DNA from: Bacteroidota bacterium
GTDB taxonomy: Bacteria; Bacteroidota; Bacteroidia; Flavobacteriales_D; Crocinitomicaceae
DNA: 53,952 nucleotides
Direction: 5' to 3'
Assembly (NCBI GenBank): GCA_016868915.1
Contig: VGFL01000004.1
Coordinates: 1 to 53,952, forward strand
The position numbers and the translations under genes are program-made. This document shows, one piece after another, positions 2,609-28,834 of this stretch. Below the pieces are notes generated by a model, which saw only the letters and a list, made by a program, of their open reading frames with translations, searched no databases and was not told the DNA's origin. Position 1 is the stretch's first letter; every line of letters starts with the position of its first letter.

Positions 2609-3382
2609 GTGAAAAAAATTTATAAATTCTTGTTAAATACTCTTCCAAGACCTCTTTTAATAAGATTGAGCTATATTTTTAAAATTTTTGCTCCGCTATT
2701 GTATAAAGGAAGCAATGTAGAATGTCCTGTTTGTGAAAGAAAGTTTTCAAAGTTTTTATCCTATGGTTCATCTGTGGCTCATCGAGATAACGTCTTATGT
2801 CCATACGACTTTACATTGGAACGACATCGTTTAATGTGGTTGTATTTAAAAAATGAGAGTAATTTTTTTTCGGCCGAAAAGTTAGATGTACTGCATATTG
2901 CACCAGAACAGTGTTTTCACAGCAAATTCAAAGCACAAAAAAACTTGAATTACGTAACAGGAGATTTAGTTTCTCCATTGGCAGACTTACACTTCGATTT
3001 ACATCAAATACCTCTCGAGGATAATCGTTTTGATGTGGTATTTTGTAACCATGTTATGGAGCACGTTGATGACCCGAATCAATGTATGAAGGAACTTTTC
3101 CGAGTTATGAGGCCAGGAGGATGGGCAATTATGCAAGTGCCACAGGATATGTCGAGAGAGACTACCTACGAGGATAGAAGTATTATTGACCCAGCAGAGC
3201 GGGAAAAGCATTTTTGGCAAAAAGATCATTTGCGTTTGTTTGGTAAAGATTACCCGAATTGGTTAGAAAAAGTAGGATTTACCATTGAGATTTTTGATGT
3301 GCAAAAGAATTTTGATAAACAAGTTGTTGATAGATTTTGTTTAATGAAGGATGAATTACTTTACATAGCCTATAAAAATTAA
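2609..3382 (+). CDS. Class I SAM-dependent methyltransferase
   Basis: GTG start; CPVCERKF zinc-finger-like N-terminus, LDVLHIAPEQ, NRFDVVFCNHVMEHVDDPNQCMKELFRVMRPGGWAIMQVP. Confidence 0.85.
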   Translation: MKKIYKFLLNTLPRPLLIRLSYIFKIFAPLLYKGSNVECPVCERKFSKFLSYGSSVAHRDNVLCPYDFTLERHRLMWLYLKNESNFFSAEKLDVLHIAPEQCFHSKFKAQKNLNYVTGDLVSPLADLHFDLHQIPLEDNRFDVVFCNHVMEHVDDPNQCMKELFRVMRPGGWAIMQVPQDMSRETTYEDRSIIDPAEREKHFWQKDHLRLFGKDYPNWLEKVGFTIEIFDVQKNFDKQVVDRFCLMKDELLYIAYKN

Positions 3383-3396
3383 TAGTTAAAAAAATC

Positions 3397-4380
3397 ATGA
3401 AAAATTTCTGTTTCACAATTTTATTTTTAATCTCTTTTATAAGTTGCTTCGGTCAAAAAAATGTTTTCTTGGACATTGCGCCAATGTTTCAAAATTCCAA
3501 TTTGGAAATGAATGAAAATTACACCGCCTGGAACGGGAAAATATTTGCGTTAGATCATTTTGATTATTATTTGTCGAATATTCAAATCGAACACGATGGA
3601 GGGCAACTTACTGCAATTAATAGTGTTTTCCTTATCGAGCCTCAAAACCACACGCTATATCTTGGTTACTTCAACATCGTACAAATTGAAAAGATTTCGT
3701 TTCTTGTTGGCGTCCCAAAACCCTTAAATACACAGACCGGTGACCAGGCGATGGATATTTCACTTTATCCTGAAAATCATCCCTTGAGTTTTCAAAGCCC
3801 ATCGATGTACTGGGGTTGGCAATTTGGATACATGCACATGATCATCGGTGGGAATGCCGATCATAACGGTGATGGAAGTTTAGAGTCTCAGTTTGAACTT
3901 CACAATTTAGGAAATACAAATCAACAACTCATACAGATGAATAATGTTATTCAATCGAATGTTTCACAAGATCAAATTAACGTAAATATCAATTGCCAAG
4001 TGGATCAATGGATAAATAATATTTCAATCAGTACGGTTGGTATTCTCCACGGCGAAACAGGAGTCAATGCGCAAATTATGGGGAATACCCTGTCAGAAAA
4101 TGTATTCATTCAACCAGCTAATGCCGGAGTGGACAATAATAGTGACAATTCAAAAATTTATTTTCAAAATGTTAGTAACGCCTTGGATATTTATTGGAGT
4201 GAATTGGCGGAGATAGATAAAATTCATGTCCGTGACCTAAGTGGTAAATTGATCGGAGAGTATTATTCAATTGAACCGTCAGGACACTTGTCTGTTCCCC
4301 ATTTAAGTAAAGGGTACTATATTATTCAGTTTTTAAACAAAAATTCTGTTGTGATTGGGAGTCTGAACGCCATTCATTAA
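3397..4380 (+). CDS. MbnP-family copper-binding-type protein with T9SS type A-like C-terminal domain (copy 1)
   Basis: Signal peptide; FALDHFDYYLSNIQ, MYWGWQFGYMHM (MbnP-type WxW motif), FELHNLGN; C-terminal IHVRDLSGKLIGEYY...HLSKGYYIIQFLN resembles a T9SS sorting domain. Confidence 0.75.
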   Translation: MKNFCFTILFLISFISCFGQKNVFLDIAPMFQNSNLEMNENYTAWNGKIFALDHFDYYLSNIQIEHDGGQLTAINSVFLIEPQNHTLYLGYFNIVQIEKISFLVGVPKPLNTQTGDQAMDISLYPENHPLSFQSPSMYWGWQFGYMHMIIGGNADHNGDGSLESQFELHNLGNTNQQLIQMNNVIQSNVSQDQINVNINCQVDQWINNISISTVGILHGETGVNAQIMGNTLSENVFIQPANAGVDNNSDNSKIYFQNVSNALDIYWSELAEIDKIHVRDLSGKLIGEYYSIEPSGHLSVPHLSKGYYIIQFLNKNSVVIGSLNAIH

Positions 4381-4382
4381 TT

Positions 4383-5384
4383 ATGAAAAGAACCAATAAT
4401 TCGATATTACTTTTACTATTTATCATTGGTTTAACTTTATTTATTTCATGCTCAAGAAAAATGATTTCTTGGACAAGCATTAGTGAAATTCCAAGCCCTA
4501 AAGATAATCCAATTTCGGATGAAAAAGTAGCTTTAGGAAGAAAATTATTTTTTGATAAGCGACTATCACTAAATAAAACGGTTTCATGCGCTACTTGTCA
4601 TGTTCCAGAATATGCATTCACTGATCGATTGACAACAAGCACGGGTATAGAAGGGCGCAAAACTGAACGAAATTCTCCCTCTTTGTTAAATTCAGCATTT
4701 TTAAAAACAGCCATGTTTGATGCTCATTTGGCAACATTGGAGGTTCAAGTTATTGTTCCAATTCAAGAACATACTGAAATGGGGAGTAATATGAAAGAGT
4801 TGATCAATAAATTGAGGTCTATACCGGAATACCAAGAAGCAGCGAAGAGGATATTTAATCGTGACTTTGATGCCTATGTTCTAACACGAAGCATTTCAGC
4901 ATTTGAACGGACGTTACTTTCATTAAATTCGCGATTCGATCAATTTGTGAATGGAAATAAATCAGCCTTAACCCAGGACGAAAAAGCTGGTTGGAAACTT
5001 TTTTCTGAGAAATTGTATTGCATTCAATGTCATCCTGCACCCTTTTTCACAACATTTGAAGCTGCTAATAATGGTCTATACAAAAATTACGAGCAACTTG
5101 ATGACAAGGGTCGCTTTAGAATATTTTTGGATTCAAACGATATCGGCAAATTCAAAATACCATCCCTTCGAAATATCGAGTTGACATACCCATATATGCA
5201 CGATGGAAGCTTGAAAAACATAGATGATGTAATTAATCATTACAAAAAGGGTGGTCAAAAGAATAATTTACAGGCTTCAATGATTCAACCTTTCGAATTA
5301 TCAAATAAGGAACAACAGCAACTCAAGTCATTTTTATTTTCGCTCACAGACACCTCATATATGTCTACCTTCAAATTTAGGTAA
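4383..5384 (+). CDS. Diheme cytochrome c peroxidase / MbnH-like lipoprotein (copy 1)
   Basis: Lipobox LFISC; two CxxCH sites (CATCH, CIQCH); KIPSLRNIELTYPYMHDGSLKNIDDVINHY. Confidence 0.88.
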   Translation: MKRTNNSILLLLFIIGLTLFISCSRKMISWTSISEIPSPKDNPISDEKVALGRKLFFDKRLSLNKTVSCATCHVPEYAFTDRLTTSTGIEGRKTERNSPSLLNSAFLKTAMFDAHLATLEVQVIVPIQEHTEMGSNMKELINKLRSIPEYQEAAKRIFNRDFDAYVLTRSISAFERTLLSLNSRFDQFVNGNKSALTQDEKAGWKLFSEKLYCIQCHPAPFFTTFEAANNGLYKNYEQLDDKGRFRIFLDSNDIGKFKIPSLRNIELTYPYMHDGSLKNIDDVINHYKKGGQKNNLQASMIQPFELSNKEQQQLKSFLFSLTDTSYMSTFKFR

Positions 5385-5420
5385 TTCATGGTTTACACTA
5401 AAAAGTAAATTTTTAAATAG

Positions 5421-6086
5421 ATGAGATTTTATTTCCTAGTTATTTTTTTGACAGTATGGGGCGCCTTTCTATGCCAGGTGAAGATTAACTTTAAATTCAA
5501 TACTAAACCACTGGTGAGAGGAGAAAAATACTTTATCAATTCAGACTCAATATGGATTCAGGTAGATGAATTAAAATTTTATGTGAATTATAAACCGGTT
5601 TTTTCAGATGAAAATAGAACTGATCCATTGGTAATCCACCTTGTTGACCTTTCTGATTCATTAAGTTATTTTCTCCCTTTTACAGAGGAAGGAATGAAAA
5701 ATTCCAAAAATTTTGATTTTGCCATAGGGTTGGATAGTGTTTCAACGTCATCCACCAAGTTTTCTGGGGCCTTGGATCCTGCCTTAGGGATGTATTGGGC
5801 TTGGAATACCGGTTATATTCATTTTAAATTGGAAGGAAAATCAAATTTATGTTCGAGTAAAAATCAAGAGTTTTTATATCATATTGGAGGTTATTTTGGT
5901 AAATATTCAACCCAGAGATGGCTTCAATCAAGAATAATTCTAATCAATGAATTGGCGTTTATTGAGCTTGAGTTGGCAAATTTTATAAAAGATGGCGTAA
6001 ATTTGGGAGTAAATCCTGTAGTTATGAATCCAGGAAAAGAAGCTGTTTTTACTGCCGATAATTATTACAGGTTATTTAAACAATGA
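5421..6086 (+). CDS. MbnP-family protein (copy 2)
   Basis: VDELKFYVNY, ALDPALGMYWAWNTGYIHFKLEGKS, FLYHIGGYFG; immediately upstream of a second diheme peroxidase with ATGA overlap. Confidence 0.78.
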   Translation: MRFYFLVIFLTVWGAFLCQVKINFKFNTKPLVRGEKYFINSDSIWIQVDELKFYVNYKPVFSDENRTDPLVIHLVDLSDSLSYFLPFTEEGMKNSKNFDFAIGLDSVSTSSTKFSGALDPALGMYWAWNTGYIHFKLEGKSNLCSSKNQEFLYHIGGYFGKYSTQRWLQSRIILINELAFIELELANFIKDGVNLGVNPVVMNPGKEAVFTADNYYRLFKQ

Positions 6087-7102
6087 AATCGAGTATATTT
6101 CTATTTCTTTTTCTTTTTATTGCCGTATTGGTCTCGTTCAAATCGAGTAAACCTAATATGGGCTTTGAAATTCCGAAAGGTTGGCCTGATCCACTATATT
6201 ATTTCAAGGGAAATGAATTTACCGAGGATAAATTTCAATTGGGGAGAAAGCTTTTCTATGACCCAATCTTATCACGAGATAGTTCAATTTCTTGCTCCTC
6301 GTGTCATGTTTCTTTCTCTGCATTTGCACACACAGATCACGCGTTAAGTCATGGAATTGACGGAAGGGTTGGTAGGAGAAATGCACCGGCATTAATTAAC
6401 ATGGCGTGGAATCCATATTTTCACTGGGACGGGTCGTTAGGTAATATTGAACGTCAATCCATGGAGCCAATTCGAAATCATAACGAGATGGATTTTAATT
6501 TAGACTCTGCCGTTTCACGATTGCTTAGAAATAAGTTTTATAATGGTTTATTTGAAAAGGCTTGGGGAGATTCTGAAATTACTGTTCGAAGAATGTTACA
6601 ATCTTTGGCAATATTTACGTCAAATTTAGTTTCTAGTAATTCGAAATACGATAAAATAATGAGAAAAGAGCGAGGTGTAGCTTTTACAAATCAAGAGAAA
6701 AATGGGTATATTTTATTTAAAAAGAACTGTGCCTCTTGTCACAAAGAACCACTTTTTTCAACGTATAAATTAAAGAGCAATGGCCTCCCAATAGATTTAG
6801 AGCTGAAAGATTATGGTCATTATACGATTTCAGAATACTACAAAGATTCTTTTTTATTTAAGGTACCAACTTTGAGGAATATAGAGTTTACTTTTCCATA
6901 TATGCACGACGGTAGATTTAAAAAACTGAAGGATGTTCTAAAACATTATGCTGAATTAAATCCTAAAACACCGTATCTAAGCAAGGAATTACGGAAAATT
7001 AAACCGCTAAGTTCCAATGATCAAAAGGATATCATTGCGTTTTTACTAACCCTGACGGATAAAGAATTTCTGTACAATCCGAGATATCAATTTCCAAGAT
7101 AA
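6083..7102 (+). CDS. Diheme cytochrome c peroxidase / MbnH-like protein (copy 2)
   Basis: Two CxxCH sites (CSSCH, CASCH); KVPTLRNIEFTFPYMHDGRFKKLKDVLKHY. Confidence 0.88.
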   Translation: MKSSIFLFLFLFIAVLVSFKSSKPNMGFEIPKGWPDPLYYFKGNEFTEDKFQLGRKLFYDPILSRDSSISCSSCHVSFSAFAHTDHALSHGIDGRVGRRNAPALINMAWNPYFHWDGSLGNIERQSMEPIRNHNEMDFNLDSAVSRLLRNKFYNGLFEKAWGDSEITVRRMLQSLAIFTSNLVSSNSKYDKIMRKERGVAFTNQEKNGYILFKKNCASCHKEPLFSTYKLKSNGLPIDLELKDYGHYTISEYYKDSFLFKVPTLRNIEFTFPYMHDGRFKKLKDVLKHYAELNPKTPYLSKELRKIKPLSSNDQKDIIAFLLTLTDKEFLYNPRYQFPR

Positions 7103-28078: not shown

Positions 28079-28834
28079 TTACGCTTCGCTTTCAGATTTA
28101 GCCAAAGAGTAAATAACAAGACCAAAACCAATCTTATTGATTGCATCACCAATGTTGTATACTACATCCATGTATTTGGTAGCATTAGCAGAATCTTGTA
28201 CTAAAGCCATTCCAAATAAACCTCCAGGAGTACCTAACATGTAACCAAGTGGATAAATAGCCCAACCTACTAAAACAAACCAAGCCAATACTCTCGTTGC
28301 CTTTGCAACTGATGGACCTGCAGTTTGCGACAAACTTGCCACTTCTCCAAACCATACAAGGTAAGCAATGTAAAAGTATGCGGCTCCGGAAATAACACCC
28401 CAAAGAACGCTGTTACCACGGTCTGTTGCTTCACCGAAGAATCCAGTTACTAACATCACAACAGAGGCAAAGATTAGTTTCCATAACAAGGACTGCTTTG
28501 CACCTGCTTTTTTGGTTATTAAATAAAACTCTACGCACATTAAAGGAACTGTAAGCAACCAATCCACATATCTAAAGAATGTTGGAGAGGTACCAGTTTC
28601 AATAAAATAGTCACGCATGTAATAATAGTGTACCGCGGCAATAAAAGTGATAAGACCAGAAACTAAAACCGAGGTACGCCATTTTTCTCCCACATTGCGA
28701 ATTTCAAAAAAGAAAAACACAGAGGCAGCCATCATGGCCATGGTGCCGATAAAAAAAGTAAAGGCAGTTGCTTGAGAAAGGCCCATTCCTTGGGTTGCGT
28801 CAAACAACGTCGTGTTGGTAATTGATAAAAACAT
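28079..28834 (-). CDS. Proteorhodopsin-type light-driven proton pump (DTE motif, Met at spectral-tuning site)
   Basis: FRYVDWLLTVPLMCVEFYLI (D91, T95, M99, E102), helix C and G motifs, Schiff-base Lys in YNIGDAINKIGFGLVIYS, His69. Confidence 0.95.
   Translation of the reverse strand: MFLSITNTTLFDATQGMGLSQATAFTFFIGTMAMMAASVFFFFEIRNVGEKWRTSVLVSGLITFIAAVHYYYMRDYFIETGTSPTFFRYVDWLLTVPLMCVEFYLITKKAGAKQSLLWKLIFASVVMLVTGFFGEATDRGNSVLWGVISGAAYFYIAYLVWFGEVASLSQTAGPSVAKATRVLAWFVLVGWAIYPLGYMLGTPGGLFGMALVQDSANATKYMDVVYNIGDAINKIGFGLVIYSLAKSESEA

Follow-up and report, generated by a model that had tools for sequence, protein, structure and literature searches.

Our bioinformatics analyses suggest that a Crocinitomicaceae bacterium (Bacteroidota; Flavobacteriales_D) carries, side by side on one contig, two self-contained and differently located modules, each consisting of an MbnP-family protein and a diheme MbnH-type enzyme and each likely to mature a copper site by converting tryptophan to kynurenine. 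The stretch analyzed, hereafter the window, comprises 53,952 nucleotides of contig VGFL01000004.1 (C4) of a 2.2-Mb draft genome that is 98% complete (GCA_016868915.1), and the four genes concerned, MbnP1, MbnH1, MbnP2, and MbnH2, follow one another on its plus strand with intergenic gaps of +2, +36, and -4 bp. Going by the sample names of its closest relatives, the bacterium is presumably of a freshwater type. Phylogeny and gene order identify the two pairs as anciently separate modules brought together in this lineage. An earlier note on this DNA had described four consecutive same-strand open reading frames (ORFs) with tiny gaps and an ATGA overlap and had quoted their motifs, all of which are present at the positions it gave. 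The genes, together with a methyltransferase gene ending 14 bp before MbnP1, are arranged as follows.

2609..3382, plus strand: class I S-adenosylmethionine methyltransferase (PF08241, 9e-16; synteny and gap table)
3397..4380, plus strand: MbnP1, 327 aa, with signal peptide and predicted C-terminal type IX secretion system (T9SS) sorting domain (PF20243; Foldseek; PF18962 in relatives of pair type T1, described below; invariant columns)
4383..5384, plus strand: MbnH1, 333 aa, predicted lipoprotein and diheme enzyme of the MauG/MbnH type (PF03150; PDB match 6e1c; residue table)
5385..5420, plus strand: 36-bp spacer between MbnH1 and MbnP2 (synteny with loci L104, L069, L160, and L161)
5421..6086, plus strand: MbnP2, 221 aa, compact, with signal peptide and without sorting domain (PF20243; AlphaFold2 model; Foldseek)
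6083..7102, plus strand: MbnH2, 339 aa, predicted diheme enzyme of the MauG/MbnH type without lipobox, overlapping MbnP2 by ATGA (PF03150; TIGR04039; residue table)

The assignment of the P proteins to the MbnP family and of the H proteins to the CCP/MauG family, proposed in the earlier note, was borne out by Pfam profile searches, in which both P proteins scored above the MbnP cut-off of 27 bits (PF20243; MbnP1, E 1.4e-24, 87.4 bits; MbnP2, E 4.9e-23, 82.5 bits) and both H proteins matched CCP_MauG (PF03150; MbnH1, 1.3e-51; MbnH2, 1.4e-49). On these profiles MbnP1 and MbnP2 are members of the wider MbnP family, outside the narrow TIGR04052 equivalog. Template-free AlphaFold2 models of both were searched with Foldseek, and the MbnP structure of Methylosinus trichosporium (7l6g) was the sole entry below E 1e-3 for either (MbnP2, pLDDT 86, E 3.7e-6, prob 1.0; MbnP1, a low-confidence model of pLDDT 67, E 2.8e-5, prob 1.0). 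A sequence-only PDB search with a P2-type profile gave no match where the fold search did; a profile of 17 MbnPs matches 7l6g by sequence (E 0.003), placing its GMAWNW and the histidine of its HVG opposite an invariant M-x-W-x-W and His. The residues concerned are Met137, Trp139, Trp141, and His169 in MbnP1 (WGW motif) and Met124, Trp126, Trp128, and His154 in MbnP2 (WAW motif); all four positions are invariant across the 17 diverse MbnPs (alignment A1) and correspond to M147/W149/W151/H182 in the chain numbering of 7l6g. The conserved tryptophans of both proteins thereby coincide in position with the WxW of the M. trichosporium protein, the alignment on which the earlier claim had been staked in advance. 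Among 121 MbnPs from relatives, the two Trp and the His never vary, and the Met is retained in 97%; these rows were chosen for having W-x-W, so that the His constitutes the independent test. The copper site of 7l6g uses one Met and one His, and Manesis et al., in a study of 2021 cited in PMC9426467, reportedly described the conversion of the first Trp of MbnP to kynurenine, with copper bound by Met, His, and solvent. From this homology we infer that MbnP1 and MbnP2 undergo the same conversion and bind copper.

The partner proteins are assigned to the MauG/MbnH type of diheme enzymes. MbnH1 carries CxxCH heme motifs at residues 69-73 and 213-217 and MbnH2 at 71-75 and 216-220, and the axial position of the second heme, a Met in bacterial cytochrome c peroxidases, is Tyr287 in MbnH1 and Tyr289 in MbnH2, as it is Tyr312 in MbnH. 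Replacement of the axial Met by Tyr is a signature of MauG and MbnH, and it is found in 102 of 109 paired relatives. The best PDB match of MbnH1 is MbnH itself (6e1c, 5.6e-49). For MbnH2, the best matches are classical diheme peroxidases (3o5c, 1.3e-39), with 6e1c third (3.3e-33), which, like the occurrence of AhpC/TSA genes in some related cassettes, would suit a different explanation, in which the H proteins are ordinary peroxide-detoxifying diheme peroxidases and the MbnPs are unmodified periplasmic binders of copper or another metal that merely share an operon with them. We consider this unlikely, given the axial Tyr, the conservation of WxW and His in the MbnPs, and the strict one-to-one pairing and correlated evolution of the two partners. 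MbnP and CCP_MauG genes number exactly three each in the whole genome, the third pair (type T3) being located on contig C5.

Under the preferred reading, a periplasmic diheme MbnH would use peroxide or oxygen to turn the leading Trp in the W-x-W motif of the partner MbnP into kynurenine, which together with the invariant Met and the His would form a Cu(I) site. The two modules probably act at different locations, as the earlier note had suspected when it called them perhaps compartment-specific. The extra C-terminal domain that it had recognized in MbnP1, and found lacking in MbnP2, is assigned as a T9SS sorting domain: the match of MbnP1 itself to PF18962 is weak (E 0.005, 17.5 bits against a cut-off of 27), 16 of the 19 T1 MbnPs scanned, MbnP1 included, match at E 0.01 or better, and a family profile of the MbnP1 lineage matches C-terminal domains of T9SS substrates in the PDB. 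The genome also encodes SprA of the T9SS machinery. Inspection of the sequences confirmed the lipobox of MbnH1 (FISC, Cys23) and its absence from MbnH2, to which we add that MbnP2 has none and that the T3 MbnP has one. MbnP1 also contains FISC, but it is probably not a lipoprotein because an ordinary signal peptide is present in its orthologues (e.g. that of L104) and residue Gln20 does not vary. Because of the T9SS tail of T1 MbnPs, the presence of SprA, and the lipobox pattern, MbnP1 is probably surface-exposed or secreted and MbnP2 periplasmic. Because a periplasmic location is expected for the H proteins, modification of MbnP1 would precede its export: MbnP1 would be matured in that compartment by the lipoprotein MbnH1 and then be carried by the T9SS to the cell surface or medium, and MbnP2 would remain periplasmic as part of a metal-sensing program.

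The word tandem in the earlier note, in the sense of a duplication, did not survive paired P and H phylogenies and synteny. A single P-H pair that was duplicated in tandem in this lineage, its copies then diverging, would account for the shared order and strand of the four genes, their tiny gaps, and the 33% identity of MbnH1 and MbnH2. However, MbnP1 and MbnP2 are only about 16% identical when aligned, with a BLAST match spanning 19 residues, and they fall in different clades, each found across the order and beyond, so that the divergence of the two pairs noted earlier proved to be deep. Among 109 complete P-H pairs collected from 60 relatives, three main types are found in the genus, T1 (P of about 325 aa with sorting tail), T2 (P of about 216 aa), and T3 (lipoprotein P of about 250 aa); the P tree and the H tree recover the same three types with small exceptions, and within each type the patristic distances of P correlate with those of H (r 0.92, 0.82, and 0.95). 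MbnP1-MbnH1 belongs to T1 and MbnP2-MbnH2 to T2. In genus members with both types, the T2 pair usually lies at a separate locus, and in two close relatives, G030 and G014, a sigma factor cassette separates the pairs. Because of the trees and this synteny, a recent tandem duplication is rejected, and we regard it as very improbable. The P-H-P-H order is itself not unique to the window; it occurs independently with other pair types in G166 (L240), and a stretch of about 7 kb in G086 (L242) holds both a P1-like and a P2-like pair. Other arrangements exist in other families of the order, where one MbnP gene often has two MbnH-like diheme genes behind it, each with the axial Tyr (16 second-H genes in total, at loci including L122, L132, L135, L141, L143, L146, L148, L149, and L150). 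Among relatives, two MbnP genes are directly adjacent in L134, L137, and L153, followed in the first two by two H genes.

Comparison within the genus suggests how the two pairs became neighbors. The T1 pair directly follows the methyltransferase gene in all 29 genus members examined. In G030 and G014, the order is methyltransferase-P1-H1-sigma-x-sensor-P2, the three genes between H1 and P2 encoding an extracytoplasmic function (ECF) sigma factor, a membrane protein of about 89 aa, and a CnrX/Metal_resist-like protein; in G030, H2 and then a block of peptidase/LolB/TPR genes follow, and the contig of G014 stops inside P2 or beyond it. The window shares its flanks with G030, including the convergent peptidase/LolB/TPR block downstream of MbnH2, but 36 bp in place of the three genes. 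Loss of the sigma factor, membrane protein, and sensor genes in the lineage of the window is the simplest account; the 36-bp junction may instead be an assembly join. The G030 sensor protein has no match in the genome of the window in a search run without a positive control. Since the P2 module lies behind P1-H1 without sigma, anti-sigma, or sensor genes of its own, it is probably expressed as one unit with the methyltransferase, MbnP1, and MbnH1. A scan for promoters and terminators gave signals no better than those of shuffled sequences. The junction between the methyltransferase gene (2609-3382 in the window) and the P1 gene is often overlapping or only a few bases long in the genus.

The cassette in which T2 pairs are usually found elsewhere comprises genes for an ECF sigma factor, a membrane protein of about 90 aa, a Metal_resist/CnrX-like sensor of about 145 aa, MbnP, MbnH, and a YHYH-domain protein with a T9SS tail. 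Public genomes hold at least 572 relatives of MbnP2, and among the best 80 loci, which were surveyed and are nearly all from Bacteroidota by title, with a few oddly labeled metagenome-assembled genomes, a sigma factor lies upstream in 46 and a sensor in 42 of the 71 with upstream sequence, a nearby H gene in 69 of 70, and a YHYH gene in 40 of the 54 with enough downstream sequence. Cultured carriers of the P2 cassette include Flavobacterium amnicola (L166) and F. psychrotolerans (L217). In L177, the sensor gives a Metal_resist match above the cut-off (3.6e-10). Some cassettes add a multicopper oxidase, a peroxiredoxin-like protein (AhpC/TSA), CotH, a sulfatase, or an arylsulfotransferase, the majority of which bear T9SS tails; at L164:2486-4198 and L178:8761-10506, the multicopper oxidase has a T9SS sorting domain. 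In most relatives, the metal-sensing program to which MbnP2 would belong would also make the YHYH-domain T9SS protein, joined in some of them by a multicopper oxidase. Within the genus, YHYH occurs in 20 of 22 genomes with T2 and in none of 15 without it (Fisher 1.5e-8, uncorrected for kinship), and the genome of the window, G014, and G030 retain a YHYH gene away from P2-H2. The only YHYH gene of the window's genome (G000:C98; L244 1-1316) adjoins a gene that by inspection resembles polynucleotide phosphorylase; the ORF call splits it in two, which may reflect a frameshift or an assembly error. The association weakens beyond the genus, where G046 and G054 carry YHYH with no T2 pair found. Large proteins encoded upstream of some P2 cassettes were considered as resistance-nodulation-division metal pumps, a candidacy that was rejected as their starts resemble SprA and helicases by inspection.

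Several findings weigh against the reading of two copper modules with this history. The equivalog models are not reached, TIGR04052 (MbnP_like_WxW) giving 35 bits for MbnP1 and 24 for MbnP2 against a cut-off of 140 and TIGR04039 (MbnH) 258 bits for MbnH1 and 197 for MbnH2 against 362.85, the latter still being the best NCBIfam match of the H proteins (MbnH2, E 3e-58). The G030 sensor matches Metal_resist weakly (0.025), the tree offers five usable independent pairs for the association of YHYH with T2, of which about four agree and none oppose, too few for significance, and the direction of the deletion is drawn from parsimony. Lastly, no copper gene lies beside the pairs or elsewhere among the part of the window ORFs that was scanned. 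This last point, and an ECF/CnrX-like regulator that could sense another metal, as Cupriavidus CnrX does in responding to Ni and Co, would also fit a reading in which MbnP acquires kynurenine or another oxidized Trp for something other than copper, such as redox signaling, binding of another metal, or adhesion. Such a role seems improbable to us in view of the His and Met that the MbnPs share in position with the copper protein 7l6g, the multicopper oxidases of related cassettes, and the MbnPH-like genes found in copper operons elsewhere (PMC9426467). As for the P2 cassette, we infer that copper is the metal it senses. We raise more tentatively the possibility of an undescribed, phylum-wide extracytoplasmic copper program of Bacteroidota, in which a CnrX-like sensor and an ECF sigma factor would control an MbnP/MbnH pair supplying kynurenine-site copper to T9SS-secreted proteins, with the YHYH protein as dedicated client; the window would then be a natural variant in which the pair, having lost its switch, has joined a second MbnP/MbnH operon that is surface-directed.

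Set against known systems, the pairs share with MbnP and MbnH of M. trichosporium OB3b (7l6g, 6e1c) the fold, the WxW with preceding Met and following His, a diheme partner with axial Tyr, and adjacency of the genes. They differ in that no methanobactin operon is present, two long-separate pairs are adjacent, MbnP1 has a T9SS tail, and the P proteins are very divergent, with 10-14% identity in the structural matches. Such a tail is, to our knowledge, not part of CorA or MopE. MopE/SACCP of Methylococcus capsulatus and CorA/CorB of Methylomicrobium album are alike in pairing a kynurenine-containing, surface-exposed copper protein with an adjacent MauG-like diheme protein (PMC3912023, PMC3621798), showing that surface copper proteins of this kind exist (PMC3912023), whereas CorA and MopE have two His ligands and show no marked sequence similarity to MbnP (PMC3621798). 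MauG, which acts on methylamine dehydrogenase, is likewise a diheme enzyme of the same superfamily that oxidizes a Trp of its partner and has Tyr in place of Met, but it makes tryptophan tryptophylquinone, and MbnH1 (203 bits) and MbnH2 (179 bits) lie far under the MauG equivalog cut-off of 444. The P2 pair in relatives shares with the CnrYXH-type ECF systems of Cupriavidus an ECF sigma factor, a small membrane protein, and a Metal_resist-type periplasmic protein, a likeness judged by Pfam, and these genes are absent from the window.

The absence of methanobactin genes from view, remarked on in the earlier note, extends for MbnB (PF05114) to the whole genome, where no homologue was found while the control genomes matched, MbnA and MbnC not having been searched for. 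As an oddity it did not stand: MbnP/MbnH pairs outside methanobactin operons have long been known (PMC3621798; PMC9426467), and MbnP genes are present in 58 of the 60 relatives searched. If the preferred reading holds, Trp-to-kynurenine copper sites would be near-universal in this Flavobacteriales lineage, and one cell would hold at least three parallel, location-specific forms of them, reaching the surface by the T9SS. Through the YHYH link, a domain of unknown function gains a candidate partner, and the sigma factor and sensor genes offer a way to learn which metal elicits the response. A T9SS-tailed MbnP, the ECF/sensor/YHYH cassette, and the stripped form seen here were not found described in the literature covered, which excluded the primary MbnP/MbnH papers (PNAS 2021, JBC 2019), so that their novelty is provisional; a literature search on "metallo-mystery pair" gave no match. 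Elsewhere in the window, positions 28079-28834 on the minus strand encode a bacteriorhodopsin-like protein, a microbial rhodopsin (PF01036, 1.3e-45).

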